Assembly (NCBI RefSeq): GCF_029338295.1
Contig: NZ_CP119792.1
Location: forward strand, 310,001-374,000
Reading direction: 5' to 3'
Origin: Haladaptatus sp. QDMS2
GTDB taxonomy: Archaea > Halobacteriota > Halobacteria > Halobacteriales > Halococcaceae
Length of the DNA stretch: 64,000 bases
This document shows positions 3,813 to 46,147 of this stretch, piece after piece. Position 1 is the first letter of the stretch; each line of letters opens with the position of its first letter. A program made the position numbers and the translations under genes. Under the pieces are notes generated by a model. It was not told the DNA's origin. It did not search any database and worked only from the letters and a program-made list of their open reading frames with translations.

Positions 3813-5048
3813 TTAGCGCTCCTCCGCGATGTTGACAGCCGCATTCGCGAGCGTCGAGGCGGCCGAATAGCAGTCGTCCCAGCTCGTGTACTCGCTTTCG
3901 TTGTGGCTCTTACCGTTCTCGCTCACGGCGAACACCATCCCGGTGTCACAGACGCTGTGCATGTGGGTCGCGTCGTGGCCCGCACCGCTGAAGATGCGCA
4001 TGCTGTCGAGTTCGAGGTCGTCTGCGGCCTGCTGAACCGCGTTTACACACTGATCTGCGAAGGTGACGCTCGGCGCGCGCATTCGCTCGTGCCACTCCCA
4101 CTCGACGCCCTCGCGCTCTGCAGCCCACTCTGCCTCCTGGAGGACGCGCTGGTAGGCTTCCTCCACCACGTCGTCGTCTGCGTCTCTGAATCCCCAGGTG
4201 ATGGTTACCTCGTCGGGGATGATGTTGATAGAGTTCGGCTTTACGTCCACGTAGCCGACTGTCCCGACGGTCCGTTCCCCGAGCGTGGCCGGAATCCGAC
4301 GGACCGCCGTGATGACGTCCGCCGCCGCGACGAGCGCGTCCTTGCGGTAGTGCATCGGCGTCGGGCCGGAGTGGTCTGCGTCGCCGTGGAAGGTGATGGC
4401 CCCCCAGGTGAAGCCAACGATGCCCGTGACCACGCCGACGTCCTTCTCGTTTTCCTCAAGATACGGTCCCTGTTCGACGTGAAGTTCGAGGTACGCCTCG
4501 TACTCCTCGGGGGGTTCTGCGGGCAGGTCGCCCCGGTAGCCGATGCGTTCGAGTTCCGCCTCGAACACCGCACCGTTCGCGTCTGTCTTCGCGTACTCTT
4601 CTTCTATCGGGTGTGCGCCCGCCCAGACGCCGCTGCCCTGCATCGCGGGCTGAAAACGCGAACCCTCCTCGTTGGTCCAGTTCACGATTTCGATTGGGTG
4701 CGCCGTCTCTACGTCCTGGTCGTTGAGCGTACGAATCAGTTCGAGCGCGCCGATGACGCCGAGCGCCCCGTCGTAGATGCCGCCGTAGGGCTGGGAGTCG
4801 AGGTGCGACCCGACCAGCACCGGCTTTGCGTCCGGGTCGGTCCCCGCGCGGCGTCCGAACATGTTCCCGAACTCGTCGACGCGCGTTTCCAGTCCTGCCG
4901 CCTCCATCTGCGTGGCGAACCAGTCGCGAATCTCCTTGTCCTCGTCGGACAGGGCGAGTCGATGGAGTCCCCCGCCATCTGTGCCCCCGATCTGGGCTTG
5001 CTCTTTCATCGTCGCAACAAACCGGTCTCGGTCCAGTTGTACTGGCAT
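3813..5048 (-). CDS. M20 family Zn-dependent amidohydrolase (allantoate hydrolase/N-carbamoyl-L-amino-acid hydrolase)
   Basis: This metal-dependent amidase has 411 residues, the normal length for the HyuC/AllC family. Metal ligands are visible: His82 in VGSHLDSQ, Asp93 in GIYDGALG, the Glu pair 127-128 in NWTNEEGSRF, and a later His in ELHVEQGPYLE that also serves the substrate site. The family hydrolyses N-carbamoyl amino acids, allantoate or ureidoglycine. The ATG at 5046-5048 is preferred to a TTG nine bases upstream, since a TATA-like element lies about 27 bases before it. It forms a tight pair with the LLM gene (1-base gap) and lies 69 bases from the importer ATPase gene. It would finish hydantoin or ureide breakdown in this cluster. 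Confidence 0.88.
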   Translation of the reverse strand: MPVQLDRDRFVATMKEQAQIGGTDGGGLHRLALSDEDKEIRDWFATQMEAAGLETRVDEFGNMFGRRAGTDPDAKPVLVGSHLDSQPYGGIYDGALGVIGALELIRTLNDQDVETAHPIEIVNWTNEEGSRFQPAMQGSGVWAGAHPIEEEYAKTDANGAVFEAELERIGYRGDLPAEPPEEYEAYLELHVEQGPYLEENEKDVGVVTGIVGFTWGAITFHGDADHSGPTPMHYRKDALVAAADVITAVRRIPATLGERTVGTVGYVDVKPNSINIIPDEVTITWGFRDADDDVVEEAYQRVLQEAEWAAEREGVEWEWHERMRAPSVTFADQCVNAVQQAADDLELDSMRIFSGAGHDATHMHSVCDTGMVFAVSENGKSHNESEYTSWDDCYSAASTLANAAVNIAEER

Positions 5049-5117
5049 ACTATCCAATCTCGGAAGCGCAAGATAAGTATTTGCGTGGCAGGGCGAAATC
5101 CGGAGCGAAAAAGGTGG

Positions 5118-6311
5118 TTACTTGCCGAGGATGTCCGTTTCGAGGTCGACGTCCGGGAGGACGCTCGTCCGCTCTAGGATGATGGTGTCCCCCGCGTCCC
5201 ACCCGACGGTGACCCGGTCGCCATCGACCGTGAGACGGTCGTCGGATTTGAGTTGAATCTCCTCGCTCGTCCCTGACTCGGTGGTCGCGTGAAGAATCAT
5301 CTGCGTCCCAGACCCGGACTGGTAAAGTACGTCTTGAACCTCGCAGTCGAGTGTGTTCTCGGCCGTCGAATCGAGCCGGACGTACTGGGGACGAACCGCG
5401 AAGGGAACCCGCTTGCCGACGAGGCTGCTCGGTTCGGAGTCGAGATTTTCAGTACTCACGGCAAACTCGCCCAGCGCCGTCTTGATGGTGGCACGGGTTT
5501 CGTCCGCCGAGAGGCCGACGAGTTCGCCGTCGAACAGGTTCGAGTCGCCGACGAACGCCGCGACGAACGCGGTGTTGGGGCGGTTGTACACCTCGTCGAC
5601 CGGCCCCGAGTGCTCGATTTTCCCGCCGTTCATGACGATAATCTGGTCTGCGAGGCGCATCGCCTGCGTCTGGTCGTGGGTGACGTAGACGAACGTGGTG
5701 TCGAGTTCGCGGTGGATGCGCAGTAACTCCCGCTCCATGCGCTTTTGGAGTTTGTAGTCCATGTCGCCGAGCGGTTCGTCGAGCAACAGCAGTTTCGGTT
5801 CGAGCACGAGGCTGCGAGCGAGGGCGACGCGCTGTTTCTGTCCCGCAGACAGTTCACGCGGCTGGCGGTCGCGCAGTTCGTGCAGTTGCATCATTTCGAG
5901 GACGTTCTCCAGTCGCTCGTCGATGGTCGCCTCCGGGAGTTTCATCCGCTTTGGCCCGTAGGTGACGTTCTCCGCGACGGTCAGGTGGGGGAATAACTGG
6001 AAGTCCTGGAACACGAGGCCGATGTCTCGCTGGTAGGTCGGCTTGTTCGTGATGTCCTTGCCATCGAGGATGACCCGACCCTCGGTCGGTTTAATCTTCC
6101 CGACCAGCGAGTGGAGCGTCGTCGATTTCCCGCACCCGGACGGCCCGATGACGACGCAGAAGTCCCCTTCCTTGATGCTAAAGGAGATGTCGTCTACGGC
6201 GAGCGTGCCGTCGGGGTAAATCTTGGTGAGATTTTCGACGCGAAGCACGTCGGTTGGGTCTTGGGCTTGCTGTCCGCCTTCCGCGTGGTCTGTGAGATTG
6301 GTTTCTGACAC
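5118..6311 (-). CDS. ABC importer ATPase, PotA-like, degenerate signature motif
   Basis: This is a nucleotide-binding subunit of the polyamine-type importer, 397 residues: an ATPase domain (about 20-255) followed by a regulatory TOBE-type domain. Walker A is GPSGCGKS (56-63), Walker B LLLLDEPLGDMD with the catalytic Glu179, and the switch His is in VTHDQ. The ABC signature reads LSAGQ (154-158) where LSGGQ is usual. A second, different ATPase gene starts 2 bases beyond its start codon on the same strand, so the two are transcribed together and could pair as a heterodimer; that gene has the complementary defect. The substrate is unknown; catabolic neighbours suggest a cyclic amide, ureide or polyamine. 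Confidence 0.9.
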   Translation of the reverse strand: MSETNLTDHAEGGQQAQDPTDVLRVENLTKIYPDGTLAVDDISFSIKEGDFCVVIGPSGCGKSTTLHSLVGKIKPTEGRVILDGKDITNKPTYQRDIGLVFQDFQLFPHLTVAENVTYGPKRMKLPEATIDERLENVLEMMQLHELRDRQPRELSAGQKQRVALARSLVLEPKLLLLDEPLGDMDYKLQKRMERELLRIHRELDTTFVYVTHDQTQAMRLADQIIVMNGGKIEHSGPVDEVYNRPNTAFVAAFVGDSNLFDGELVGLSADETRATIKTALGEFAVSTENLDSEPSSLVGKRVPFAVRPQYVRLDSTAENTLDCEVQDVLYQSGSGTQMILHATTESGTSEEIQLKSDDRLTVDGDRVTVGWDAGDTIILERTSVLPDVDLETDILGK

Positions 6312-6313: not shown

Positions 6314-7462
6314 TTATACCTCCATCAGGTCGTCGACGGTGACGGTATCGACCACGCTGAGCGTGGCGTATGCGATGCTATCGGTGGCGTCCCAGCCAAT
6401 CGTCGTCCTCTCGCCGACGGTGTCACTCGGCACGTTGCCGGTGATGACGACCTGGAACTCCTCCGTGTCGGGACCGATAGAGACGCTGAACTCCGTCTCC
6501 TCGCCCGTGTAGGTCCGACCGACGACGGTCGCGGGGAAAGAGTTCTCCCGGGCAGTAGCGCCCTCGCCGATGGTGATGTCTTCGGGCCGAATGAGCACCA
6601 TGACCTCGGTTCCGGTGTCCACGGGGCCGTTGCGAGACTCGCTTACCACCGTCCCCTGTGGGGTTTCGACGACGACGTGGTCGTCTCGCGTCTCGACGAC
6701 GCTGCCGAGCAGCGGGTTCGAGTCGCCGATGAAGCGGCCAACGAACGCAGTTGCGGGATTCCGATACACCTCGTCGGGCGTTCCGACTTGCTCTATCATG
6801 CCGTGGTTCATCACGACGAGTTTGTCGGCGAGTTTGAGCGCCTGGTCCTGGTTGTGCGTGACGTAGACGAACGTACTCCCCATCGAATCGTGGATGCGGC
6901 GCATTTCGAGTTCCATGCGCTTTTGGAGTTTGTAGTCGAGGTCGGCGAGTGGGTCATCGAGAAGCATCACGTCGCACTCGCGGACGAGTTGCCGGGCGAG
7001 TTCGACCCGCTGTTGTTGCCCGCCGGAGAGTTCCGATGGTTTGTTCGCGCGTGTCTCGCTGATGGCGAGGAGGTCGAGCACCTCGTCTATCTTCTCCTGG
7101 ATTTCTGCTTCGGTGTAGGAGTCGTCCGACTGTCGGAGGCCGAAGGCGACGTTCTCTGCGACGCTCATGTGGGGGAACAATCGCTCCTCGAAGTCCTGGA
7201 AGACGTAGCCGAGATTACGGTCTTCGATGGCGATGTCGTCTACGTTCTCTCCGGCGAGGTGAATCGTCCCGCCGTCGTACGGAACGACGCCCGCGATAGC
7301 CTTGAGCAGCGTCGATTTGCCGCTCCCGCTCGGCCCGACGACGACGCAGAATTCGCCTGATTTCACTCCAAAATCGATGCCCCGGAGCACCTGTTCGTTC
7401 GCAAAGGACTTTTCGAGGGCGGATATCGAGATGATATCCTCGCCTTTGCTAATTGCACTCAT
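6314..7462 (-). CDS. ABC importer ATPase, Walker B Glu replaced by Asp
   Basis: This second nucleotide-binding subunit has 382 residues, with the ATPase domain at about 10-245 and a TOBE-like domain after it. Walker A is GPSGSGKS (43-50) and the signature is the canonical LSGGQ (145-149). Walker B reads VMLLDDPLADLD, so the catalytic Glu is Asp170; the DNA codon is gac. It is the first gene of this minus-strand group, with an ATG placed about 27 bases from a TATA-like element, and it leads into the other ATPase gene with a 2-base gap. PotA-type importers normally use one gene for a homodimer, so two diverged copies side by side are notable. Confidence 0.9.
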   Translation of the reverse strand: MSAISKGEDIISISALEKSFANEQVLRGIDFGVKSGEFCVVVGPSGSGKSTLLKAIAGVVPYDGGTIHLAGENVDDIAIEDRNLGYVFQDFEERLFPHMSVAENVAFGLRQSDDSYTEAEIQEKIDEVLDLLAISETRANKPSELSGGQQQRVELARQLVRECDVMLLDDPLADLDYKLQKRMELEMRRIHDSMGSTFVYVTHNQDQALKLADKLVVMNHGMIEQVGTPDEVYRNPATAFVGRFIGDSNPLLGSVVETRDDHVVVETPQGTVVSESRNGPVDTGTEVMVLIRPEDITIGEGATARENSFPATVVGRTYTGEETEFSVSIGPDTEEFQVVITGNVPSDTVGERTTIGWDATDSIAYATLSVVDTVTVDDLMEV

Positions 7463-8511: not shown

Positions 8512-8708
8512 ATGTGTTCACCGTATTCGAGACAGTCCCACACGATAAATCATTGTTCGCCGGAATTCGAAGGGGAATCCCACAAAAACGACCCACTCCG
8601 CCGCCTTTTATCGAGGGAAACGAGCCGGAAGCAGTCGGAGCGACCCGAGCACCTGTCATCGGTCGGTGAGAAACGGTTATGTGGGTGACCGGTAAGGTCA
8701 GTGTGTGT

Positions 8709-10808
8709 ATGTCACGCAGTACCAGGAGTAGCCTCGCCAGTGTACGTATCGGAGTGGACGTCGGCGGGACGAACACCGACCTGATTCTCGTCACGGAGGA
8801 CGACGAGTTCATCCACAAGACGCCCTCGACACCCGACCCATCGGATTCGACGGTGACCGGAATCGTCGAACTTTGCGAGCTTGCGGGCGTTGCCCCGAGT
8901 TCGGTGGAACAGATTTTACACGGCACGACCGTCGCCACGAACGCCTTGCTCGAACACGAGGGGGCAGAAACCGGGATGCTCACGACTCGCGGATTCAGAG
9001 ACGTTATCCACATCGGCCGCCACCGCAAGCCACACAGTTTCTCACTCCAGCAGACGATTCAGTGGCAGGAACAACCCATCGTCAAACGACGCCATCGAAA
9101 GGAAGTCACCGAACGAATCCAGCCGCCAGGCGACGTGGTCACCCCGCTCGACGAAGACGACGTGTTGAACGCGGTGGAGGAACTCGTCGAAGACGGTGTC
9201 GAGTCGGTCGCCGTTTGCTATCTCCACTCGTACCTGAACGGAGACCACGAAGCTCGGACGAAGGAACTCATCGAGGAGCACTACCCCGACCTGTTCGTCT
9301 CCACCTCTCACGAGGTCATCTCGCAGTTCCGCGAATTCGAGCGGTTCACGACGACGGCGATTAACGCCCGCCTCGCGCCGGTGATGTCCACGTACCTTTC
9401 GCGACTGGAGCGACGACTCGGTGAGGAGGGGTTCGACGCGGAAATCCTCATCATGCAATCGAACGGCGGGATGGCAAGCCTCCAAAACGTGGCCGAACAG
9501 CCGGTGACGACGCTCGTCTCTGGGCCGGCGGCGGGCGTCCTCTCCGCGGAGTTCGAGGGCAAGCACGTCGGCAAACCGAACCTCATCATGCTCGACATGG
9601 GCGGGACGAGCGCGGACATCTCCGTCGTTCCCGGCCGGGTGCTCGAACGCGACCCGCGAGACAGCAAGGTGGGCGGCTATCCGGCGATCGTCCCCATGCT
9701 CGACATCGCTACCATCGGTGCTGGCGGTGGTTCTATCGCCTGGTTCGACGGCGCGATGGGATTCAACGTCGGGCCGAAGAGCGCGGGTGCCAATCCCGGC
9801 CCGGTGTGTTATGGCCGGGGCAACGACCAGCCGACGACGACCGACGCCCAACTCACCCTCGGGCGTATCGATCCCAACTCGTTCCTCGGCGGCACACTTG
9901 ACCTCGACCACAAAGCGGCGGTAACCGCCATCCAGACGCAGCTCTGTGACCGCGTCGACCAGGAACGGTTCTCGACACCCGAACACGCCGCGCTCGCCAC
10001 GCTCGAAGTGGCGAACACGAACATGTACCGGGCGATTCGCGAACAGACCGTCCAGCGCGGATACGACCCCCGCGAGTACACGATGGTTGCCTTCGGCGGT
10101 GCGGGACCGATGCACGCCGCGAGCATCGCAGAACAACTGGAGATGTCGAACGTCCTGATTCCGCCGTCGCCCGGTATCGCGTCGGCGCGTGGCCTGCTCA
10201 CGGGCAACGTGAAGTACGACTTCCAGCAGACGGTGAGCCAGCGCCTCGAAACGGTCGAAGCCGACTACATCGACGAGGCGTTCGACCGCCTCGAAACGAA
10301 CGGGCGCGACCAACTCTTGCGCGACGAAATCGACGAATCCCGGTGGGAGTTCAGACGGACTATCGACTGTCTCTACGAGGGACAGGGTTACGAACTGAGC
10401 ATCGACTTCGAGGGCACGGATGGCGACTGGCACGCTCGAATGCGCGAGAAGTTCGAACAGAAACACGAAGCCGAGTACGGCCACTACTTCGAGGCGGACC
10501 CGGTTGTCATGCTCAACCTTCGCGTGACCGCAATCGGGGACATCCACTCCTACGAACCGCTCGACGTCGAGGCAGGTGACGAGAATCCGGCGGCGGCACA
10601 GACGACCGAAACGACGGTCTACTTCGGCGATTCGGCCGCACCCGAGGAACTGACCGTCCCGCGCTACGACCGCGAGAAACTGGCGGTGGGGAACGTCGTC
10701 ACCGGCCCGGCCATCGTCGACGAGTTCGACAGCACCGTCGTCGTCAATCCGGGTTGGACGGCCACGGTGTTACAGAACGGTGCAATCGAACTGCGGAGAG
10801 AGCCATGA
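8709..10808 (+). CDS. hyuA: Hydantoinase/oxoprolinase family protein, subunit A
   Basis: This is the ATP-binding half of an N-methylhydantoinase/oxoprolinase-type ring-opening enzyme, about 699 residues. The N-terminus has the ASKHA-like phosphate motif RIGVDVGGTNTDLILV, then HGTTVATNALLE, GPAAGVLSAEF, LDMGGTSADISVV and GAGGGSIAW, all hallmarks of HyuA. The family couples ATP hydrolysis to opening of hydantoin, 5-oxoproline or related amide rings. The ATG at 8709 is preferred to one at 8679, because the protein's first motif follows closely and a TATA-like stretch around 8673-8681 places the RNA start near it. Its stop overlaps the hyuB start (ATGA), so the two are translationally coupled. 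Confidence 0.92.
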   Translation: MSRSTRSSLASVRIGVDVGGTNTDLILVTEDDEFIHKTPSTPDPSDSTVTGIVELCELAGVAPSSVEQILHGTTVATNALLEHEGAETGMLTTRGFRDVIHIGRHRKPHSFSLQQTIQWQEQPIVKRRHRKEVTERIQPPGDVVTPLDEDDVLNAVEELVEDGVESVAVCYLHSYLNGDHEARTKELIEEHYPDLFVSTSHEVISQFREFERFTTTAINARLAPVMSTYLSRLERRLGEEGFDAEILIMQSNGGMASLQNVAEQPVTTLVSGPAAGVLSAEFEGKHVGKPNLIMLDMGGTSADISVVPGRVLERDPRDSKVGGYPAIVPMLDIATIGAGGGSIAWFDGAMGFNVGPKSAGANPGPVCYGRGNDQPTTTDAQLTLGRIDPNSFLGGTLDLDHKAAVTAIQTQLCDRVDQERFSTPEHAALATLEVANTNMYRAIREQTVQRGYDPREYTMVAFGGAGPMHAASIAEQLEMSNVLIPPSPGIASARGLLTGNVKYDFQQTVSQRLETVEADYIDEAFDRLETNGRDQLLRDEIDESRWEFRRTIDCLYEGQGYELSIDFEGTDGDWHARMREKFEQKHEAEYGHYFEADPVVMLNLRVTAIGDIHSYEPLDVEAGDENPAAAQTTETTVYFGDSAAPEELTVPRYDREKLAVGNVVTGPAIVDEFDSTVVVNPGWTATVLQNGAIELRREP

Positions 10809-12622
10809 GTCAAGACCACCCAAAAACCGACGACCAGACCGTACAGACCAGCGCGACCGAAATCCTGAAAGGCAGGAATATCGACCCCGTGACGATGCAG
10901 GTCATCGGCGGGGAACTCGACACCATCGCCCAGGAGATGGGCTACAAACTCATCCGGTCTTCGTACTCCTCGATTATCAGGGAGAGCGAGGACATGGGCG
11001 CGGGCATCTTCACGACGGATTGTCGGGAGCTCTGTGAGAGTGACTCGACACCGATGCACGTCGGGTCGCTCATCGGCTACCTGCAGGGGATGTACGACAC
11101 CTTCGAAGAACGCGGCGTCGAACGCGAGGACATCATCAACGAAGGCGACGTGTTCATCCACAACCACCCCCACTACGGGGCGAGTCACTCGCCGGACATC
11201 GCCGTCGCGGTGCCCATCTTCTACGAGGGCGAGCACATCGCGTGGGCGGCGAACACGGCCCACCACCTTGACATCGGCTCTGCGACGCCCGGCCTCGCCA
11301 TCGACTTAGAGGACATGTACGCAGAGGGGAGCCTATTTCGGGCGACCAAGGTGTACGACCAGGGCGAGCGCGTGGACGAAATCTGGAACTTCATCCAGGA
11401 CAACGTCCGCACGCCACGCGAGGTCATCGGCGACCTGCAAGCCCAAATCTCCTCGTGCAACGTCGGCAAAGACCGCTACCTCGCGCTCGTCGAGAAGTAC
11501 GGGCTGGAGGAAATCCAGCTCGCGGGCGAGGCGCTCATGGACTACGCTGAGGCCCTACTTCGCAACGAAATCCGGAAGATTCCGGACGGCACGTACTACG
11601 CCGAGGACTATCTCGACGACGACGGGCGCAATCGCGGCAAGCGGCTGAAAATCGCCGTCGAAATTACCGTCGATGGCAGCGACATCACCGTGGACATGAG
11701 CAAGTCCGCAGACCAGACGCCGACAGGGTACAACATCCCGTTCCACGGCTCGACGGACGTGTGTATCTACTTCACCATCCGGTCGCTGCTGATGGACACC
11801 TTCGTCCGCGACGAATACCTGCCACAGAACTCCGGGACGTTCAAGCCCGTCCACCCGAAGGCGCGACCCGGCTGTATGTTCAACCCAACGCCGCCCACCT
11901 CTGCGTTCGCGCGCATCAATCAGGTGGACAAGATGAGCGACCTCATCATCAAGGCGCTCGCGGAGGCGCTTCCAGAGCGCGTCTGTGCCGGCACCTGCGG
12001 ACAGGTGTACTTCGTCAGCTACGGTGGGACGGACGACGCGGGTGACTACTGGGTGTACCTCGAAGTCAACGAGGGGTCCTACGGTGGCCGCCCCGCCGCA
12101 GACGGACTCGACGCGGTCGACGCACTCGTTCACAACACGAAAAACCGACCGGTCGAAGACATCGAACTCTCACACCCGATGCGCGTCGAACGATACCACC
12201 TCCGCGAGGACGGCCACGGCGCGGGCAAGCACCGCGGCGGCCACGGCATCGTCCGCGAGTCGCGCTTCCTCACGAACGCCGTGATGACGATGGAAGGCGA
12301 CGGGAACACCTACCGCCCGCACGGCCTGTTCGGCGGCGGCGAGGGAACCCACGGCGACCTCAAACACATCAAGGCCGACGGCGAGGTCATCGACCTCAAC
12401 TCGAAGGAATCCGGCTACAAGTTCGAACCCGGAGACCGCGTGCTCATCAAGACGGCCAGTGGCGGGGGCTACGGCAACCCACACGAGCGCCCGGCAGAGC
12501 AGGTGTACGCGGATTATCTCGATGGGCTCGTGTCAGTGGAAGCCGCCCGCGACGACTACGGCGTCGTCATCAAAGACGACGAACTCGACCTGGTGGCGAC
12601 GACGGACCTGCGCTCGTCCTGA
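10805..12622 (+). CDS. hyuB: Hydantoinase B/oxoprolinase family protein, subunit B
   Basis: This partner subunit of HyuA has 605 residues. The region DPVTMQVIGGELDTIAQEMG, then SDDMG-like ESEDMGAGIFT, and the C-terminal GGGEGTHGD and TASGGGYGNP segments are typical of HyuB proteins. HyuAB complexes hydrolyse N-methylhydantoin, hydantoin, 5-oxoproline, acetophenone-type or caprolactam-type substrates, depending on the clade. The start codon sits in the 4-base ATGA overlap with hyuA. The downstream MmgE/PrpD gene has its own promoter-like TATA element, so the hyuAB pair may be a separate unit. Confidence 0.92.
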   Translation: MSQDHPKTDDQTVQTSATEILKGRNIDPVTMQVIGGELDTIAQEMGYKLIRSSYSSIIRESEDMGAGIFTTDCRELCESDSTPMHVGSLIGYLQGMYDTFEERGVEREDIINEGDVFIHNHPHYGASHSPDIAVAVPIFYEGEHIAWAANTAHHLDIGSATPGLAIDLEDMYAEGSLFRATKVYDQGERVDEIWNFIQDNVRTPREVIGDLQAQISSCNVGKDRYLALVEKYGLEEIQLAGEALMDYAEALLRNEIRKIPDGTYYAEDYLDDDGRNRGKRLKIAVEITVDGSDITVDMSKSADQTPTGYNIPFHGSTDVCIYFTIRSLLMDTFVRDEYLPQNSGTFKPVHPKARPGCMFNPTPPTSAFARINQVDKMSDLIIKALAEALPERVCAGTCGQVYFVSYGGTDDAGDYWVYLEVNEGSYGGRPAADGLDAVDALVHNTKNRPVEDIELSHPMRVERYHLREDGHGAGKHRGGHGIVRESRFLTNAVMTMEGDGNTYRPHGLFGGGEGTHGDLKHIKADGEVIDLNSKESGYKFEPGDRVLIKTASGGGYGNPHERPAEQVYADYLDGLVSVEAARDDYGVVIKDDELDLVATTDLRSS

Positions 12623-12682: not shown

Positions 12683-14047
12683 ATGACCCAGTCGCCAGCG
12701 GAGCGCACGAAAACCCCAGAACATATCCTCGCGTCGTTCGTCACCAGATTGACCTACGAGCAGGTGCCAAAAGAATCGGTGGAGACCGTCGAACGCGCGT
12801 TCGTCGATACCGTCGGCGTCACGCTCGCCGGTGCAGTGGCCGACGCCGGAAAACGCGCCATCGCCATCGCGCAACCCGTCACCGCCGACGACGGCGGCGT
12901 AACTCTACTCGGAACCGGCCAGCAGGCCGCGCTGACTGACGCCGTCCTCGCCAACGGAACTGCGGGCCACGCCCTCGACTTCGACGACCTCTCGTGGGCG
13001 ATGGACGGCCACCCGAGCGTGCCCCTCGTCGCCCCCGCGCTCGCGCTGGCCGAGCAACTCGACGCGAGCGGCAAAGACGTGATTACGGCGTTCGCCGCGG
13101 GATTCGAGGCCGAGTGCTACATCGCAGAGCCGGTGAGTCCGGCCCACTACGAACAGGGCTGGCACCCGACCGCGACGTTCGGAACGTTCGGGGCCGCGGC
13201 GACGGCGGCCCACCTGCTCGGCCTCGACGCCGAGGCGACCGAGCGCGCGCTCAACATCGCCGCGTCGATGCCGTCTGGCCTGAAACGCAACTTCGGGTCG
13301 ATGACCAAGCCCCTCCACGCCGGACTCGCCGGGCGCTCTGGCGTCACCGCGGCGAGATTGGCGGCAGAGGGGTTCACCGCGGACGACGCCGCAATCAGCG
13401 GGGCGCGTGGCTTCTGGGACCGGTACGGCGACGGCGCGACCCGGGTGGCCGACCCGCCGGGCGACCCGTGGCGACTCGTCGAAACGGGAATTAGCATCAA
13501 GGCCTACCCCTGTTGCTATTTCACCCACACGAGCATCGCCGCGGCCCAGCAGCTGGTCGAAGACCACGCCATCGTGCCGGCGGACGTAGAACGCATTCGA
13601 ACGGTCACGTCGCGGGGTGCGGGCGACGCGCTCGTCCACCCGATTCCCGAAACGGAACTGGAGGCGAAGTTCTCGATGGAGTACGCCCTCGCCTGTGGGG
13701 TGGCCAGTGACCGCATCGGCCTCGCCACGTTCGAGCCAGCGACCATCCGCGACCCCACCATCCAGCAGGTACGCGAACGCGCCGTCTTCGAGGTAGACGA
13801 ATCGCTTCCCTACAAGTCGAATCTGGCGACAGTCACGCTGACGACGACCGCCGGAGAGACCTACGAGGCGACGCTCGAAGAACCACCCGGAACGCCGAAC
13901 AACCCGCTCACTGAGGCGGAGCTGCGGGCGAAGTTCGTGGACTGTGCGACGAGAGCAGTGGAAGAATCAGTGGCAGCGGACACGTTCGAGCGGTTGCTCT
14001 CACTGCGCGACCAAGCGAGCGTTCGTGATATCCTCGCCGTGCTCTGA
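12683..14047 (+). CDS. MmgE/PrpD family protein
   Basis: This is a member of the MmgE/PrpD family (2-methylcitrate dehydratase, cis-aconitate decarboxylase, iminodisuccinate epimerase fold) of 454 residues, the usual length. The helical domain with FVDTVGVTLAG and NGTAGHALDFDDLSW is at residues 35-105, and SIKAYPCCYFTH is in the second half. In bacteria, members occur next to hydantoinase and aspartate-derived pathways, where they act as lyases, dehydratases or epimerases on small dicarboxylates. The ATG at 12683 is about 27 bases from a TTTTAG element at 12653-12658; another ATG seven bases upstream is out of frame. It converges with the NodB-fold hydrolase gene. Confidence 0.88.
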   Translation: MTQSPAERTKTPEHILASFVTRLTYEQVPKESVETVERAFVDTVGVTLAGAVADAGKRAIAIAQPVTADDGGVTLLGTGQQAALTDAVLANGTAGHALDFDDLSWAMDGHPSVPLVAPALALAEQLDASGKDVITAFAAGFEAECYIAEPVSPAHYEQGWHPTATFGTFGAAATAAHLLGLDAEATERALNIAASMPSGLKRNFGSMTKPLHAGLAGRSGVTAARLAAEGFTADDAAISGARGFWDRYGDGATRVADPPGDPWRLVETGISIKAYPCCYFTHTSIAAAQQLVEDHAIVPADVERIRTVTSRGAGDALVHPIPETELEAKFSMEYALACGVASDRIGLATFEPATIRDPTIQQVRERAVFEVDESLPYKSNLATVTLTTTAGETYEATLEEPPGTPNNPLTEAELRAKFVDCATRAVEESVAADTFERLLSLRDQASVRDILAVL

Positions 14048-14075: not shown

Positions 14076-14915
14076 TTAGTTTTCGTCTCTGAACTCGCTC
14101 GCGACGGTGTCCATCTCTTTGAACTCGACGTCGGGCTTGGTCTGCATGTGCTGGATGAGTTGTTCGAGGCGCATGATACGGTGAGCCTGCCCGATGACCT
14201 GCGGGTGCATCGTGAGGATGAACACGCCGTTGTCGATGTTGTCGTACATCCAGTCGAACTGGTCGTACCAGCGCTGGAAGATGGAGTCCTCGCTCACGTA
14301 GCCCATCCGGTGGGGGCGGGCCCAGGTGAAGGTAAAGGGTGGCCAGTCGTCGCGCTGCCAGGAGACGGGGAGTTCGACGATGTCGGTGGGTTCACCGCGG
14401 TCGTAGGGGCCGTCTGGTGGAGCGCTCCACCCACCGTAGACGTAGTGGGGTTTGAAGTCGGAGGCCATCTTGCTCGAATCCCATTCGATGCCGATGTCCT
14501 CTAAAATGTCGAGGGTGTTCGCAGAGAAGTCCCAGGCTGGCGACCGGTAGCCGGTCGGTTTGCGCCCGGTGAGGTCGACGATGCAGTCCACGGCGCGTTC
14601 GACGTCGGCGCGTTCGTCCTCTTCGGATTCGAACGTTGCCGGGCCGGTGTGACTCCATCCGTGGTGCTGGATGTCGTACCCGCGGTCCCACACCTCGCCG
14701 CTGATTTCCGGGAAGCTGTCGATGGTGTGACCCGGAATGAACCAGGTCGCCGGAATGTCGTATTTGTCGTGAAGGTCGAGCAATCGCGGGGCTCCGACTT
14801 CCGCGCCGAATACGCCTCGGGAGTGTCTGGTCGGCATGTCCCACGAATCGTAGGACCACAGCCAGGTCGATACGGCGTCAAAATCGTACGATAGGCAAAC
14901 GGTAGCTTTTGGCAT
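14076..14915 (-). CDS. NodB-fold polysaccharide deacetylase-like hydrolase (possibly a ring amidohydrolase)
   Basis: This metal-dependent hydrolase has the NodB fold, 279 residues. The metal-site Asp residues lie in SYDFDA (Asp11/Asp13) and the metal His pair is HHGWSH (His85-x3-His89); YRSPAWDFS and TMHPQVIGQ mark later catalytic motifs. The S-x-DFD start, the size and the lack of a signal peptide fit the intracellular PuuE allantoinase and cyclic-imide hydrolase branch rather than secreted chitin deacetylases. It is last in a minus-strand series (aminotransferase, amidase, dihydropyrimidinase, chaperonin, this gene), which supports a role in cyclic amide opening. Its own TATA-like element lies about 27 bases from the ATG. 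Confidence 0.82.
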   Translation of the reverse strand: MPKATVCLSYDFDAVSTWLWSYDSWDMPTRHSRGVFGAEVGAPRLLDLHDKYDIPATWFIPGHTIDSFPEISGEVWDRGYDIQHHGWSHTGPATFESEEDERADVERAVDCIVDLTGRKPTGYRSPAWDFSANTLDILEDIGIEWDSSKMASDFKPHYVYGGWSAPPDGPYDRGEPTDIVELPVSWQRDDWPPFTFTWARPHRMGYVSEDSIFQRWYDQFDWMYDNIDNGVFILTMHPQVIGQAHRIMRLEQLIQHMQTKPDVEFKEMDTVASEFRDEN

Positions 14916-15080: not shown

Positions 15081-16850
15081 CTAGGTGTCCCACCGGGTCC
15101 CGGGATTCTCTTCGAGGTGGTCTAAGTGCTTCTCCGCCCGGTCGTCGTAGATGGAATCGCCTGGGCCGAGCGGTTCCTTCGTGAACGTCGCGTCGATGGC
15201 GTCGTCCACCCGCAAGATGAGGTCTGCAACTTCGGTTGCGGAGACGAGCAGTCGGTGCTTGTAGGCGGTCGGGTCGAGCACGCCCGCCGCTGTCGCGTCG
15301 GTGATCTCACCCGCAGGATAGACGAACCCGAGTGCCGTCTCGCCACCCGCGCGCGCCGCACGAAGGTCGGCCAGCATCGAGAGCCGGTCGTAGCCACCAT
15401 TGTAGACGAGCGTCCCGACCACGCGTTCGAGGGCGTCGGCGAAGGATTCGACCGCGAGTTGGGCGCGGCCATCAACTGCGCGAGCGGACTCTCGGACTGC
15501 CGCCGCCATCGTGAGTTCGATTGCGCCACCACCCGGAACCACGCCGGGCCGAGCCGCGCCTTCACCCCGAGCGGCGGCGAGTGCGGCGGCCGCTTTTCGA
15601 ACTTCTGTGGCGGCCTGCGTCGCGGGTTGCCCAGACACCCCGTGGACGACGGCGGAGACACCCGTTGCCTCGGGGCAGTCGTCGATGACGATCATGTAGC
15701 GGTTCTTCCGGCGGCCCCGGCGCGGGTCGATGCGAACCTCTGAGACGCTCCCCGCGAACCCGAGGTCGGCAGCGGAGACGTCGCCCGGATGGCGGACGAG
15801 CGCGGCTCCCGTCGCCCGTGCGCACTGCTTCATTTCGAGCGGACTCACCCCGCGAACGGCGAGGATGTCCGCGTCGGCGAGGAGGCGCTGGTACGCCTGA
15901 TTGATGCCCAACCGCGTGACTACGACGTCCACCCCGAGCGAGACGTAGTGGTCTACGAGCGCCCGGCGGGTTGCGGCCTGGTGGTCACGAACCGCGTCGA
16001 GTTTGTCGAGCGAATCGAGTTTCAGCGTGGCGTCTTCGTCCCACTCCGGGTCCTGCAGGCCGCCGGTGGTGTGCCCGTCGAGCAACAACACGGTGGCGTC
16101 CTCGACTCGGCGGGGCATCTCGTCGTTCGCCCGCGTGTTCCGGTCGAGAACCGCGCCGCGAAATAGCCGCGAGTCGGCAAGCGACCCTGATCCGAGACAA
16201 CGGACGGTGAACGTCTCCTCGGTCGGGCGGCCGATTCGGTCTACGGCCTCCACGGCGAGTGCCGCCCACGAGTCGGCGAGGCCGCCAATGTCGTTACCCG
16301 TCATTGCGGTTCTGGCGACGGCGGCCGCCGCCCAGTCTGCGTCCTCGAACGACGAGAGCGAGCGGGATTCTGCGGCGAGCGCCGCCAGCGCCCGGTCCAT
16401 CGCGAGCGCGTAGCCGTGCCGGATGTCGTAGGAATGGAGTCCCAGTTCGAGTAACTCCTCCGCGTTCGAGAGCAATGCCGCCGTCAGGACGACGCCCCCG
16501 GAGACGCCGTCCGGGATGTCCTGTCCCTCGATGGACGTGTCGCCGGGGCGCTCTGGGCCGAGAATTCGCGTGACGATGGGCGCGACGGGGTGTTCCATCG
16601 GCAGTGCGTTCAACAGCGTTGCGCCGTCGTTTGCGACGGTGTAGTCGTCCGTGGCGGGGACGCCCTTGTTCTCGGGTTGGTCGCGTGTCGCGAGTCGGTT
16701 GACGACGAGTTTGTCGCTCGACCGGGGACCGAGGGTCGATGCCAACACGTCCGCCATCGCCTGGACGGCGATGCAGTTCGCCTGGGGAAACTGCGGAACT
16801 GGCTCTTCGGCCTCGTCCCCGGCAGGTGGCCGGGTTTGTACGCTACTCAT
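15081..16850 (-). CDS. Divergent thermosome-like (TCP-1/cpn60) protein with altered ATPase residues
   Basis: This is a group II chaperonin homologue of 589 residues, somewhat longer than ordinary thermosome subunits (about 550). Conserved marks are TLGPRSSDK (39-47), VANDGATLL (72-80) and VPGGGAIEL (438-446). Two ATPase motifs are altered. The usual GDGTTT is PDGVSGG (113-119), and the Asp conserved across group I and II chaperonins just before VPGGGA (D-A-L) is Ala422 in KAAAAL. The Gly/Met-rich tail is absent. A TATA-like element lies about 27 bases from the start. The gene sits between dihydropyrimidinase and a NodB hydrolase on the same strand, so it may serve the cluster's enzymes rather than general folding. 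ATPase loss is inferred from alignment by eye. Confidence 0.87.
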   Translation of the reverse strand: MSSVQTRPPAGDEAEEPVPQFPQANCIAVQAMADVLASTLGPRSSDKLVVNRLATRDQPENKGVPATDDYTVANDGATLLNALPMEHPVAPIVTRILGPERPGDTSIEGQDIPDGVSGGVVLTAALLSNAEELLELGLHSYDIRHGYALAMDRALAALAAESRSLSSFEDADWAAAAVARTAMTGNDIGGLADSWAALAVEAVDRIGRPTEETFTVRCLGSGSLADSRLFRGAVLDRNTRANDEMPRRVEDATVLLLDGHTTGGLQDPEWDEDATLKLDSLDKLDAVRDHQAATRRALVDHYVSLGVDVVVTRLGINQAYQRLLADADILAVRGVSPLEMKQCARATGAALVRHPGDVSAADLGFAGSVSEVRIDPRRGRRKNRYMIVIDDCPEATGVSAVVHGVSGQPATQAATEVRKAAAALAAARGEGAARPGVVPGGGAIELTMAAAVRESARAVDGRAQLAVESFADALERVVGTLVYNGGYDRLSMLADLRAARAGGETALGFVYPAGEITDATAAGVLDPTAYKHRLLVSATEVADLILRVDDAIDATFTKEPLGPGDSIYDDRAEKHLDHLEENPGTRWDT

Positions 16851-16904: not shown

Positions 16905-18284
16905 TCAGACGCTCCAGTCGGGAAGTTCGCGCGCGACGAACTGACCGTGGCCGGGCTTGCCGACGACTTCGCCGTCCTTCGCGACGCACTCGCCGCGGAC
17001 GAACGTCTGTTTGACCCGCCCGGTCACTTCGCGGCCCTCGTAGATGGAGAAGTCCGCCGCAGAGGCGTTGTCTTCGGCCGTGATGGTGTACGTCTCGTTC
17101 GGGTCGAACAGGACGATGTCTGCGTCGGTTCCGGGGTCGAGGGTTCCCTTCCGCGGCATGCCGAACGTCTCGGCGGGGTAGGTACTCATCACGCGGACGA
17201 GGAACGGGTAGGACAGGCCGCGGTTGTTCACCGCCTCGTCGTGGACGACCGGCAGACTGGCTTGCAGGCCGTTCGCGCCGAACGTGCTCTCCCACCAGTT
17301 ATCGACGTTCTTCCCTTCGAGTTTGTAACCACAATGGTCGGTCGAGACCACGCCAAGCGTGCCCTTCGTCAGGTGTTCGAACATCGCCTCGTTGTCGTCG
17401 GGCTTGCGAATCGGCGGGGCAATCATCGCCTGGTTGCCGAGGTCGGCGTAGATCGAGTCGTCGAGGACGAGGTAGTGCGTACACGTCTCCCCGCGAACCA
17501 GCGACCCGTCGACCTGGAACTGTTCGATCACGTCCGCCGATTTCCGGCAGCTGGTGTGGATGCCGTAGTACTTCGCGCCCGCTTCGGTGGCCATGCGCAC
17601 CGCGTCCTCTGCGGCCATCGCCTCGGCATAGTCGGGGCGGGACTGGGGATACCACGTCGGGTCGCCCTTGCCCTCTTCTTTGAACTGCGCGGTCAGTTCG
17701 TCGCAGACGTCTGGGTCTTCCGTGTGGAACACGCCAACCGCGTCGAGTTCGGCGATGCGCTTCAGGACGGAGTTCATGAACCCGTTGTCCAGACCGATTT
17801 CGTAGGCGGTGAACATCTTGAACGAGGTGACGCCAGCCTCCACCGCTTCTTCGAGTTCGTCGATGACGGCGGGGTCCTGGCGGGTGAGTGCCCCGTGGAC
17901 GCTGTAATCGACGATTGCCTTCTTGCCTTTCTCCTGTTTCTCCGCGATACCCTCCATGAGGGTTCCCTCCTCCTCGTAGTTGCTCAACTCGCCGACCCAC
18001 GCCTGCCACGCGAAGTCGATGTACGTGGTGACGCCGCCGAGGGCCGCCGCGCTGGTTCCTGTCTCGTACGTATCGACCGAGAAGTGGTCCTCGATGTGGA
18101 CGTGCGGGTCGATGATGCCTGGCATGACGAGCAGGCCGGACGCATCGACGACCTCCGTCGCCTCGGGCATATTCTCGTCGCGGCCGACGGCGACGATTTC
18201 TCCGTTGTCGATGGCGATACTCGCGTCGAACACGTCGGTCGACGTGACGAGCGTCCCCCCGCTGATGACTGTGTCTACAGGCAT
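16905..18284 (-). CDS. Dihydropyrimidinase/D-hydantoinase
   Basis: This cyclic amidohydrolase has 459 residues from the ATG at 18282-18284; an in-frame GTG 21 bases upstream is less likely. Metal ligands are evident: the PHVHIED pair near residues 67-69, a lysine in TSFKMFTAYE (the carbamylated Lys position), YGIHTSCRKS, ETCTHYL and the Asp in VVSTDHCGY. The enzyme opens hydantoin or dihydropyrimidine rings reversibly to N-carbamyl amino acids, which the M20 hydrolase at 3813-5048 could then decarbamoylate. A CTTTTTGTAG element about 25 bases upstream serves as the promoter. The gene is between the amidase and chaperonin genes on the same strand. Confidence 0.93.
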   Translation of the reverse strand: MPVDTVISGGTLVTSTDVFDASIAIDNGEIVAVGRDENMPEATEVVDASGLLVMPGIIDPHVHIEDHFSVDTYETGTSAAALGGVTTYIDFAWQAWVGELSNYEEEGTLMEGIAEKQEKGKKAIVDYSVHGALTRQDPAVIDELEEAVEAGVTSFKMFTAYEIGLDNGFMNSVLKRIAELDAVGVFHTEDPDVCDELTAQFKEEGKGDPTWYPQSRPDYAEAMAAEDAVRMATEAGAKYYGIHTSCRKSADVIEQFQVDGSLVRGETCTHYLVLDDSIYADLGNQAMIAPPIRKPDDNEAMFEHLTKGTLGVVSTDHCGYKLEGKNVDNWWESTFGANGLQASLPVVHDEAVNNRGLSYPFLVRVMSTYPAETFGMPRKGTLDPGTDADIVLFDPNETYTITAEDNASAADFSIYEGREVTGRVKQTFVRGECVAKDGEVVGKPGHGQFVARELPDWSV

Positions 18285-18365
18285 ATCTATGTCAACTCGT
18301 GACACTACAAAAAGGTTCTCAGAGGTGGCTGAATACCGTCAGGAATCGGGTGAATGGTAAACCGC

Positions 18366-19793
18366 TCAGTTTGCGACCTGTTCGAGCGCGGCGGCCACGC
18401 GAAGCGCCGTGGCGTCGTCGAACTGCGGCGCAACCGCCTGCGCACAGACGGGGCGGCCATCGACCGTTTCGACGGGCACGGAGACCGCCGGCGTGCCGGC
18501 GATGTTGAACGGCGCAGTGTTGCCGATGAGCGGCAGCAGGTCCGCTCGCGTCGTCGTCTCGCCGACGGCGGGAGGAAGCGTTCTGAGCGTGGGCATCACG
18601 AGCGCGTCCACATCCGCGAAGGTGGCCGTGAGGCGCTCGCCGAAGTCGATACCCGCTCTGCGCGCCTTCGCGTATGCCCGACCGTTCGTCTTCGCGTCGA
18701 GAAAAGCCGGCGGGAGGATACGGCGGGCGACGTGGTCGCCGAGGCCACGCTCACGGGCCGCTTCGAAGGCAGCCCGCAGTTGCTCGCTGTACCCCGACCC
18801 GAATCCGCGGACGACGCCGTCGCCCGCGAGCAACCACGAGAACTCGGCGGAGCCGATATTCAGATAGGTCACTTCGAGGTTCAGGTCGAGAGAGACGGGT
18901 GTCGTCTCCACGCCGACCGCGTCGAGACGGCTCGCCACCTCGCGGACCGCGTCTGCCACCGCGTCGTCAGCCCGGTCGAATCCCGTATCCGGCAAGCCGA
19001 CGGTGAGTCCCTCGAAATCCGCGACCGTGTCGCCAACGCCCTCAAGCGTGGCGCGGGCACAGGTGGGGTCTCGCGGGTCCGGCCCCGCCATCGCCTCCAG
19101 GGCGCGAGCGGCGGTGCGAACGTCCCGCGTGAGCGGGCCGATGGTATCGAGGGAGGGGGCGAAATCGACGAATCCGTAGCGCGGGACGAGGCGGTGTGAG
19201 GGTTTCGCGCCGACGACGCCACAGCACGCCGCCGGAATGCGGATGCTCCCGCCCGTGTCGCTGCCGAGGGCGACGTCGACCGTCCCCGCCGCGACCGCCG
19301 CGCCGCTTCCGGAGGACGACCCGCCCGCAACGTGGTCGGGCGCGGTTGGGTTCGTGACGTGGCCGAAGTCACTGAATTCGCCGGTCGGCCCCATCGCGAA
19401 CGGTTCCATGTTCGTCTTGCCGACGAGGACGGCACCCGCGGCCAGCAACCGTTCGATGACGGTGGCGTCGAACGACGGAATGACCGAGTAGCTCGCAGAA
19501 CCACAGGTCATCTCGAGGTCCGCCACCGCGATGTTGTCCTTGACGGCGACGGTGAGTCCCGCGAGCGGGCCATCCGGCGTTTCGAGTCGTGGTTCGTCGT
19601 AGACGGCGAGCATGGCGTTCTCGTCGTCTGCGCTACTGTGACCGCGGTCGGTCCCCGCCGGCGGTGCCCGGTCGTCCGCCAGGTCGGCTTCCGCGAGTGC
19701 GGCGGTCACGAGGTCCGCGAGAATCTCGTCTGCGAGGGCGAAATCGAATCGGGCCGCCTGCGTCCGCATCAGTTCGAGGTCCGTCTCGGTCAT
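18366..19793 (-). CDS. Amidase (amidase signature family)
   Basis: This is an amidase signature enzyme of 475 residues. The Ser-cisSer-Lys triad is visible: Lys85 in VAVKDNI, Ser159 in AGGSSSGSG and the nucleophile Ser183 in GSDTGGSIRIPA. It lacks the C-terminal domain of full allophanate hydrolases, so it may act on a simple amide or on an N-carboxylated product of the nearby biotin enzyme. The ATG at 19791-19793 overlaps the stop of a 14-codon mini-ORF (ATGA), and the TATA element is positioned for the mini-ORF, not for this start. That suggests coupled translation. The dihydropyrimidinase gene follows 81 bases downstream. Confidence 0.9.
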   Translation of the reverse strand: MTETDLELMRTQAARFDFALADEILADLVTAALAEADLADDRAPPAGTDRGHSSADDENAMLAVYDEPRLETPDGPLAGLTVAVKDNIAVADLEMTCGSASYSVIPSFDATVIERLLAAGAVLVGKTNMEPFAMGPTGEFSDFGHVTNPTAPDHVAGGSSSGSGAAVAAGTVDVALGSDTGGSIRIPAACCGVVGAKPSHRLVPRYGFVDFAPSLDTIGPLTRDVRTAARALEAMAGPDPRDPTCARATLEGVGDTVADFEGLTVGLPDTGFDRADDAVADAVREVASRLDAVGVETTPVSLDLNLEVTYLNIGSAEFSWLLAGDGVVRGFGSGYSEQLRAAFEAARERGLGDHVARRILPPAFLDAKTNGRAYAKARRAGIDFGERLTATFADVDALVMPTLRTLPPAVGETTTRADLLPLIGNTAPFNIAGTPAVSVPVETVDGRPVCAQAVAPQFDDATALRVAAALEQVAN

Positions 19794-19834
19794 CCGCGCC
19801 TCCTGGCGCTCGCTGGTCGTCGCTTGCTCGCCAT
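19790..19834 (-). CDS. Mini-ORF, 14 codons, upstream of and overlapping the amidase start
   Basis: The deduced peptide is MASKRRPASARRRG; two further codons are added if the in-frame ATG at 19840 is used. It is very basic, unlike the acidic haloarchaeal norm. Its ATG lies about 26 bases downstream of a TTATTA element, as expected for a leaderless transcript. Its TGA overlaps the amidase ATG (ATGA). I infer a leader ORF that feeds ribosomes into the amidase gene by termination-reinitiation. Three similar cases occur in this window. No homology is claimed, and expression is unproven. Confidence 0.4.
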   Translation of the reverse strand: MASKRRPASARRRG

Positions 19835-19856
19835 ACCCATACCTCCGTGGGGGGTG

Positions 19857-19864
19857 TAATAAGT
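19857..19864 (-). promoter_or_regulatory. TATA-like element for the amidase leader ORF
   Basis: The minus strand reads CACTTATTAC here. Its centre is about 26 bases from the mini-ORF ATG at 19834 but about 67 bases from the amidase ATG, so it points to transcription starting at the mini-ORF. Confidence 0.45.
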
Positions 19865-19911
19865 GCGCCGTCGGCGGCAGCGTCACGTGAAAACGACGCT
19901 CGACAGTCAGT

Positions 19912-21252
19912 TCACGGCGCGTGGGCTTCGATGCCCTCGACGATGATGTCCATGCCGACTGCCGCCTGTTCGTTCGTCATGACCAGTGGCGGGAGCAGGC
20001 GCAGAACGTTGCCGTGGCGACCCGCAGACCAGATGAGGACGCCGCGTTCGTAGCAGTACTGTTGGATGTCCTTGACCCGCTGTTTGAGCGGGTTGCCGTC
20101 CGCGTCACGGAACTCAGCGCCGATGAACAGGCCCTCGCTACGAATCTCAGCCAGTTCCGAATTCGCCGCGTCAGCGAGACGGCCGGTGATGTAGTCGCCG
20201 AGGTCGCGGGCGTGGGCGAGCAGGTCGTGTTCCTGGATGTACTCGATTGCCCGGACGCCACCGCGCATGGCGGGGACGTTTCCGCGGAAGGTGCCGACGT
20301 GGCCGCCGGGCCCCCACGTGTCGAACTTCTCGTGGTACATGACTGCGCCGAGCGGGAGGCCCGCGCCGCCGATACCCTTCGCCATCGTCATGGCGTCGGG
20401 AGTGACCCCCGACCACTCGGAGGCGAACCACTTGCCGGTGCGGCCGAACCCGGACTGGATTTCGTCGAAGATGAGCATGACGTCGTTGTCGTCCGCTAGG
20501 TCGCGCAGGCCGGGCAGGAACTCTCGAGGTGGGACGACGACTCCGCCTTCGCCCTGTACCGGTTCGACCCAGATGCCCGCCGGATTCTCCTTGCCGCTGT
20601 AGGGGTCTTCGAGGATGGACTGAATGTGTGCGAGCGAGCGTTCACACGACTCCGCGTCGGTCGGGTACGGCGCGTGGACGACGCCGGGAAGGAGCGGTTC
20701 GTAGCCCGCCTTGTACTTCTTGCCGGCGGTCAGGCTGAGCGCACCGGCAGTCGTGCCGTGATACGACCCCTCGAAGCCGAGCATCCCGGTGCGACCCATG
20801 TTGTGTTTCGCGAGTTTGATTGAGCCCTCGATGGCGTCGCTGCCGCTTGGTCCGCCGAAGACGACCTTGTTGTGTCCCTTGAGGCCGCCGGGAGCGATTT
20901 CGTCGAGCGCCTCGATGAAGTCGAGACGGGCCTCGGTCGGGAAGTCGATGGTGTGGGTTATCTTCTCGGTCTGTTCCTGGACGGCTTCGAGGACGTACGG
21001 GTTCGAGTGCCCGACGTTGAGCACGCCGATGCCCGCGAAGAAGTCGAGGTAGACGTTTCCGTCCACGTCGCGAACAGTCGCGCCCTTCGCCGAATCGAGG
21101 GCGATGGGAACGCTGCGCGGGTAGGCGACCGCGTTGCTCTCGATGTTTCGCTGGCGCTCTACCAGTTGGTTCGACTTCGGTCCCGGGATGGGGGTTTCGA
21201 CGTGCGGTGCGTCCGCGAAGTGGAGTTCGTCTATCGGCGGCCCTGCGGTCAT
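19912..21252 (-). CDS. Class III PLP-dependent aminotransferase
   Basis: This is an aspartate aminotransferase-fold class III enzyme of 446 residues. The PLP phosphate loop is [11 protein letters not shown] (133-143), the cofactor Asp263 is in [13 protein letters not shown], and the Schiff-base lysine is Lys292 in MAKGIGGAG. It resembles 4-aminobutyrate/diaminobutyrate aminotransferases. In this cluster a beta-alanine-, beta-aminoisobutyrate- or omega-amino acid-type product of ring cleavage is a plausible substrate. The start ATG at 21250-21252 was chosen because a TATA-like ATCTATATTAG lies about 27 bases upstream. It heads the minus-strand series running down to the NodB hydrolase. Confidence 0.9.
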
Positions 21253-21411
21253 TACGTATGCCTTACTGAGGGGACTAATATAGATTGCCACATGCACACA
21301 CGGAGCTGTCATCCGTCGAACCAGTAGGCGGCGCACCTGTCACCGACCATGAAGCTCAGGTCCGAACCACAATGCGGAAGGATTAATTGGGATGTGGTGT
21401 GAGATACTGTC

Positions 21412-38664: not shown

Positions 38665-38761
38665 ATGTGCCCATCCACCACGCTCGCTCGCAAAACTCTT
38701 TCCCACCGAGTGACAGGCTGTGACACAACGTTTATCGTGTCAGCCCGACGGAGTTCTATCG

Positions 38762-41025: not shown

Positions 41026-41045
41026 CCGAGCGTTCCGTCCTCAAA

Positions 41046-41053
41046 TTTTATAT
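41046..41053 (+). promoter_or_regulatory. TATA-like element for leader ORF of the second oxidoreductase
   Basis: TTTTATAT is centred about 26 bases upstream of the ATG at 41076. The main ORF start at 41138 is about 88 bases away, so the RNA most likely begins at the mini-ORF. Confidence 0.5.
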
Positions 41054-41075
41054 GTCGAGGCGACGCGGTAGTGGC

Positions 41076-41141
41076 ATGGTACGCAGAGTGACACGAACGC
41101 CAGCGAATCGACCGGGTCGGCCGCCGAGGTGGGAACGATGA
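41076..41141 (+). CDS. Mini-ORF, 21 codons, overlapping an oxidoreductase start
   Basis: The peptide starts MVRRVTRTPANR and ends PGRPPRWER, extremely Arg-rich. The ATG is correctly spaced from the TATA element for a leaderless transcript, and its TGA overlaps the ATG of the Gfo/Idh/MocA gene at 41138 (ATGA). I infer that ribosomes load at the mini-ORF and reinitiate. Expression is unproven, but the architecture repeats at three other genes. Confidence 0.42.
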   Translation: MVRRVTRTPANRPGRPPRWER

Positions 41142-42154: not shown

Positions 42155-42204
42155 GACAGGGGAGACGTATTTAACGATTGCCGCGAGAGAGTACGTGTAC
42201 GCAG

Positions 42205-43095: not shown

Positions 43096-43157
43096 GCGCA
43101 GTCACACACGCCGTTTTCGCCCCCTCGTTTTATGCTACCAGAACCCACATTCGGACT

Positions 43158-45118: not shown

Positions 45119-45183
45119 CGTCGCGGCGACGACTCGTTTTTGCGGGCACCAAGAACTATACACTGCGTGGTCGTCGTCTGCCC

Positions 45184-46146: not shown

Positions 46147-46147
46147 C

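Follow-up and report, generated by a model that had tools for sequence, protein, structure and literature searches.

Chaperonins are described in textbooks as ATP-driven folding cages. Among group II chaperonins, roles have been assigned to Asp60 and to the nucleotide-sensing Lys161 (Mm-Cpn numbering), and in known thermosomes the N-terminal strand and the stem-loop hairpin pair between ring neighbors. The thermosomes of haloarchaea are believed to be hetero-oligomeric. MimG-type GroEL-like chaperonins are encoded by an extra chaperonin gene within catabolic clusters of binuclear iron monooxygenases, while TorD/DmsD-type Tat chaperones are dedicated cytoplasmic proteins encoded beside their Tat-exported client. 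The D386A variant of Mm-Cpn binds ATP without hydrolyzing it, which leaves it locked in an open, ATP-bound form (PMC5019054). MKKS/BBS6, BBS10 and BBS12 (and CCT8L) are divergent group II paralogs in which the ATP-hydrolysis motifs are degraded and the Gly-Pro is kept (PMC2846930).

A further divergent group II chaperonin, hereafter CPN, is encoded in the window analyzed here, a stretch of 64,000 nucleotides from the haloarchaeon Haladaptatus sp. QDMS2. Its open reading frame is uninterrupted, and the surrounding cluster contains the following genes.

362..1207, minus strand: permease 2 of an ABC importer
3813..5057, minus strand: M20-family amidohydrolase (AllC / N-carbamoyl amidase type)
5118..6311, minus strand: ATPase 2 of the importer, with a homolog at 19/19 CPN loci
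6314..7462, minus strand: ATPase 1 of the importer (ABC_tran + TOBE_2), with a homolog at 19/19 CPN loci
8679..10808, plus strand: hydantoinase/oxoprolinase subunit A (HyuA), near 10/15 orthologs
10754..12622, plus strand: hydantoinase/oxoprolinase subunit B (HyuB), near 7/15 orthologs
12683..14047, plus strand: MmgE/PrpD family protein, near 4/15 orthologs
14076..14915, minus strand: NodB-fold hydrolase (Polysacc_deac_1), whose nearest solved structure is 3qbu, an H. pylori peptidoglycan deacetylase
15081..16850, minus strand: CPN, ATPase-remodeled group II chaperonin paralog of 589 residues (PF00118 match and alignments)
16905..18305, minus strand: dihydropyrimidinase/hydantoinase-type amidohydrolase, separated by 54 bp from the CPN gene downstream
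18366..19886, minus strand: amidase, with a 60-bp gap to the amidohydrolase gene
19912..21336, minus strand: class III aminotransferase, which opens the run of genes on this strand
Immediately left of the window, ~G000:C2:306.6-309.0 kb: Tat binding protein and permease 1 of the importer

As a first-pass annotation had described, the CPN gene lies between those of the dihydropyrimidinase and the NodB-fold hydrolase. All three are on one strand, in a run that reads aminotransferase, amidase, dihydropyrimidinase, CPN and NodB with gaps of 25, 60, 54 and 165 bp. A near-identical record, from Haladaptatus sp. YSMS36, gives HyuA the same annotation. Elsewhere in the window, at positions 38720-50385, genes that by eye resemble Gfo/Idh-type oxidoreductases form a dense series, with other catabolic genes in between.

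The same annotation called CPN a thermosome paralog, and homology to group II chaperonins is confirmed. PF00118 (TCP-1/cpn60) matches residues 33-554 with E=3e-93 and 313.5 bits against a gathering cut-off of 34.3, and the closest solved relatives, found by phmmer against PDB sequences, are archaeal thermosomes. Identity to archaeal group II chaperonins is ~30%. The fold marks TLGPR, NDGAT and VPGGGAIE are all present in an alignment with the core cct genes, and the greater length and missing Gly/Met tail noted at first sight hold as well, CPN having 589 residues compared with 525, 558 and 559 for the three housekeeping thermosome genes of the same genome. CPN falls below the curated NCBIfam thermosome cut-offs, scoring 304.2 bits against 450 for NF041082, 289.6 against 400 for NF041083, and 290 against 671.1 for TIGR02339.

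Key positions of the nucleotide site are altered.

15594..15596, minus strand: codon of Lys419, where Mm-Cpn has its catalytic Asp (D386); Lys in 17/19 orthologs, Gln in 2/19
16293..16295, minus strand: codon of Asn186, where Mm-Cpn has its nucleotide-sensing Lys (K161); Asn in 19/19
16494..16514, minus strand: PDGVSGG, residues 113-119, in place of the phosphate-binding GDGTTT (alignment with core cct)

Residue register was taken from a MAFFT alignment of 15 orthologs with the three core cct genes. The hydrolytic Asp that had been reported missing is indeed absent, but the residue in its place is Lys419 and not Ala422, as agreed by MAFFT, phmmer against solved thermosomes and hhalign of two family profiles, none of which puts an Asp there. 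Because Asp is lost at this position in all 19 orthologs under purifying selection, the loss is not a matter of chance. The exchange of GDGTTT for PDGVSGG likewise withstands alignment: the Asp-Gly is kept, while the first Gly and the Thr run are gone. Asp75 (equivalent to D60) and Asp114 (of GDG) are retained and invariant in the aligned orthologs, and the Gly-Pro of TLGP is kept. The site is therefore remodeled, not erased, and its two Asp residues make residual nucleotide binding or slow turnover possible. The segment bearing the D386 position shares 22% identity with the core, the lowest of the fold domains, yet 58% within the family, where it is among the best conserved, which argues for a rebuilt site over decay. 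Conserved new residues of the nucleotide site comprise the insertion ERPGxT, Asn186-Asp187 and Arg418-Lys419.

The invariant Asp75 and Asp114 and the surviving GP of TLGP would suit a specialized chaperonin that is still ATP-driven, with a mechanism altered through Lys419 or other residues. Such activity seems quite improbable, as D386A alone abolishes hydrolysis in Mm-Cpn (PMC5019054), whereas CPN carries Lys at this position and also loses K161 and the Thr run. Instead, in the best explanation, which as a whole is about as likely as not, CPN belongs to a stable family under selection that would be unable to run the normal ATP-hydrolysis cycle. The remodeled site would then probably hold the subunit in one conformation, or bind another ligand, instead of cycling.

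Two segments further set the family apart in the ortholog alignment.

16518..16559, minus strand: family-specific insertion GPERPGDTSIEGQD, residues 98-111, beside the nucleotide site
15084..15182, minus strand: family-specific C-terminal tail EPxxPGDxIYDxxAExHxxxLE, which replaces the Gly/Met tail

Insertions common to the family include one of ~14 residues in the stem loop, the sequence GPERPGxTxVxGE adjoining the nucleotide site, and a basic stretch at residues ~377-384, while the N-terminal strand PLIVL of core subunits is absent. With this strand lost and the stem loop enlarged, normal ring packing of CPN is doubtful, though still possible. A predicted model from 15 sequences has a fair fold and aligns with the Mm-Cpn structure 5w79 (Foldseek TMt 0.81), but its nucleotide-loop region is unreliable; pLDDT is <50 in most of residues 38-116, loop insertion included, so the model does not establish the geometry of the nucleotide site.

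It is also conceivable that CPN has given up chaperone function and, with its nucleotide site repurposed, serves the importer or catabolic cluster in a structural, ligand-binding or regulatory role. Consistent with this, the site is rebuilt with conserved new residues (ERPGxT, Asn186-Asp187, Arg418-Lys419) and has not decayed, and the intermediate segment differs from the core but is conserved among family members. However, the apical domain and lid segment are still there and resemble the core about as closely (identity ~0.30) as the remaining protein does, which favors continued client binding and renders a purely non-chaperone use rather unlikely.

CPN orthologs are found in 15 of 392 genomes of the order, the source genome counted, at 46-75% identity to CPN, nearly full length and without stops. 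Four more are carried on plasmids of Halobellus limi, Haloarcula litorea, Halarchaeum sp. and Natronorubrum bangense, giving 19 in all, patchily spread and often on secondary replicons. A pattern scan of genome contigs for CPN returned Halobium salinum as its sole match, and no ortholog was found outside Halobacteriales in a 247-genome sample of the phylum. In a tree with haloarchaeal cct genes, the check that the annotation had proposed, the 15 aligned orthologs form one clade with SH-aLRT support of 100%, distinct both from the cct genes and from two further divergent clades; the tree is a quick one, and its support concerns the CPN clade and not the order among the deep clades.

The patchy occurrence (15/392 genomes), often on secondary replicons, might indicate a functionless thermosome copy that is decaying or passively carried on plasmids. 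This is extremely improbable given the neighbors constant at 19/19 loci and the state of the gene itself, in which internal stops are lacking, dN/dS among orthologs is 0.11-0.27, within the range of adjoining genes, and 94 columns are invariant across the 15 orthologs. The same three properties exclude a pseudogene, and the pseudogene-like rate of change named earlier as evidence against function is not seen. Judged from its sequences, CPN is a conserved ATPase-remodeled chaperonin family of Halobacteriales, neither pseudogene nor housekeeping subunit, since its changes are held in 19 orthologs that are under purifying selection and whose clade is fully supported. The initial description of an ATPase-impaired or repurposed chaperonin is thus strongly supported by the conserved loss of catalytic and sensing residues, the separate clade and the purifying selection.

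The neighborhood of CPN has one constant partner. A complete ABC importer, consisting of a Tat-exported binding protein, two permeases and two ATPases, was scored by tblastn at the CPN loci of 15/15 genomes, and the importer is also present in 4/4 of the further plasmid records. It lies directly around CPN in 12/15 genomes; in the source genome, G001 and G387 it belongs to the same cluster at a distance of ~8-18 kb. All 15 binding proteins checked carry the twin-arginine motif RRNF, and in a separate search the binding protein had no match in any of 28 tested genomes without CPN. In two of the CPN importer clusters, a DUF3830 protein gene adjoins an SDR gene (L121:15087-15533; L123:33508-33924).

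The NodB hydrolase is found near 14/15 CPN orthologs, and 12 of these copies are at least 83% identical (83-94% in the genomes other than the source). Within the order, NodB proteins at this level occur in 12/392 genomes, all 12 with CPN, and in 0/377 CPN-free genomes (Fisher p = 2e-20). The next NodB homologs are at most 73% identical and belong to CPN-free genomes, with the exception of an unlinked 56% copy (G351) and two extra copies at 55-58% (G314) in genomes with CPN. Hydantoinase genes, whose constant presence beside the orthologs the annotation had proposed to check, do not share this constancy: dihydropyrimidinase is near 7/15 orthologs, HyuA near 10/15 and hydantoin racemase near 10/15, and the importer is invariant instead. 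In Haloarcula litorea, the importer accompanies CPN although hydantoinase and NodB genes are both absent from the surrounding 9 kb. Dihydropyrimidinase, near only 7/15 orthologs, is therefore rejected as the main partner or client of CPN. The earlier idea of a dedicated holdase or scaffold for a neighboring hydrolase finds partial support: the association with a cyclic-amide cluster proves real, but the invariant neighbor is the ABC importer and not the dihydropyrimidinase.

CPN evolves faster than its neighbors, with a median identity of 0.49 compared with 0.56-0.64 for the importer genes and 0.82 for NodB. Its distance matrix follows that of the importer genes (r 0.84-0.94) more than that of NodB (r 0.41), a correlation that would also arise if the genes merely travel together on plasmids.

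A gene kept intact after loss of its ATP-burning parts, with the same importer always nearby, suggests a custom chaperone for one pathway. The chances are about equal for and against CPN being a pathway-dedicated chaperone that works independently of ATP hydrolysis and is tied to the importer or the cyclic-amide pathway. Acting as a holdase or assembly factor, CPN would bind one product of the cluster via its apical domain. The most likely clients would be importer parts, above all the Tat-exported binding protein, as Tat export needs folding in the cytoplasm beforehand; the NodB-fold hydrolase would come next. Since many ABC importers of haloarchaea do without a dedicated chaperonin even though their binding proteins are Tat-exported, the need for one at the CPN importer is unexplained.

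Other divergent chaperonins occur in haloarchaea. The source genome has eight distinct chaperonin genes: three core cct genes on the main replicon, a further three on the one that contains the window, and two in tandem on contig C3, the third replicon. Two divergent chaperonins, chA and chB (G000:C2:219569-221137 and G000:C2:252483-254180; L039:9567-11138 and L040:8481-10181), are present in an identical set of 13/293 genomes of the order. Their genes are adjacent and convergent in 11/13 genomes and lie near sugar-acid catabolic genes, in most cases also near an ABC importer whose binding protein is of the Tat type. In one member D60 is missing in 13/13 genomes and D386 in 12/13, whereas D60 is still present in 12/13 and D386 in 11/13 copies of the other; from this pattern, the two are likely an obligate hetero-oligomer.

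Such an obligate pair, in which one subunit is without Asp60 and mostly without Asp386 while the other largely retains both, makes mixed rings with impaired subunits plausible in haloarchaea. CPN could similarly be a non-catalytic regulatory subunit of housekeeping Cct1-3 rings that alters client choice or slows the cycle, and both the presumed hetero-oligomeric nature of haloarchaeal thermosomes and the three core cct genes in the genome would accommodate it. However, CPN lacks the PLIVL strand and carries a 14-residue insertion in the equatorial stem-loop hairpin, and no partner chaperonin gene was found in CPN clusters, so that a place in Cct rings is an unlikely reading.

The two tandem chaperonin genes on C3 overlap (L041:9374-12830; G000:C3 19.3-22.8 kb). 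One has Asn at both D386 and D60, the other is catalytically intact, and their cluster includes catabolic genes, among which one looks by eye like a member of the enolase superfamily. No close ortholog of the degenerate member was found in 253 genomes of the order, where its nearest relatives are core cct genes. The pair is seen at both ends of the 330,897-base contig, on the same strand and with near-identical scores, as if a circle of ~305 kb had been assembled with overlapping ends; from the matching positions, the ends appear to overlap, so that the pair is counted twice. On plasmid pNG700 of Haloarcula marismortui (L122:7656-10578), a gene for a 538-residue chaperonin with its catalytic residues kept lies 34 bp downstream of the formamidase gene fmdA, so that a well-known haloarchaeon carries a further lineage of chaperonins linked to an enzyme.

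With CPN, chA/chB and the pNG700 chaperonin each encoded beside uptake or catabolic genes, recruitment of thermosome paralogs to such operons looks like a recurring theme in haloarchaea. More tentatively, and with the balance somewhat against it, CPN may be a naturally ATPase-dead chaperonin family dedicated to one ABC importer, most likely to its Tat binding protein, and one of several independent recruitments of thermosome paralogs to plasmid-borne nutrient-uptake operons, another being an obligate pair of a subunit lacking the catalytic Asps and a subunit largely keeping them. In the open-licence literature, no paper was found on chaperonin recruitment to haloarchaeal uptake or catabolic operons, and papers on haloarchaeal chaperonins near hydantoinase, on Tat-linked chaperonins and on MimG held nothing on the CPN system.

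If CPN acts as proposed, it would show that the cage fold is able to chaperone specific clients independently of ATP, and archaea would have a counterpart to the chaperonin-like proteins of human Bardet-Biedl syndrome. With one gene in one operon, often plasmid-borne and in culturable haloarchaea, CPN is a genetically simple system for studying the mechanism of pseudo-chaperonins, and it lets one ask what makes certain importers depend on a folding factor of their own.

Compared with the archaeal thermosome, Cct1-3 and Mm-Cpn, CPN shares the fold, the match length, TLGP, Asp60, the Asp-Gly of GDGTTT, VPGGGA and the apical lid segment. It differs in the replacement of Asp386 by Lys/Gln and of Lys161 by Asn, in the loss of the Thr run, the PLIVL strand and the GGM tail, in its stem-loop and nucleotide-site insertions, in its non-housekeeping locus and in scoring below the curated thermosome-subunit cut-offs. 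MKKS/BBS6, BBS10, BBS12 and CCT8L resemble CPN in their degraded hydrolysis motifs and kept Gly-Pro, the vertebrate proteins being thought to act outside the canonical ring. In contrast to CPN, they are eukaryotic, of independent origin and without an importer or catabolic operon, whereas CPN keeps Asp60 and the GDG Asp. Nor does CPN descend from eukaryotic CCT by its relationships, its nearest PDB sequences being archaeal thermosomes and its occurrence being confined to Halobacteriales among the genomes sampled. MimG-type chaperonins are likewise additional chaperonins encoded inside one catabolic cluster, but they belong to group I, are thought to be ATP-driven, and have other substrates and no importer link. 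With TorD/DmsD, which have an unrelated fold, CPN would share the idea of a chaperone dedicated to a Tat client, its own client role being putative.
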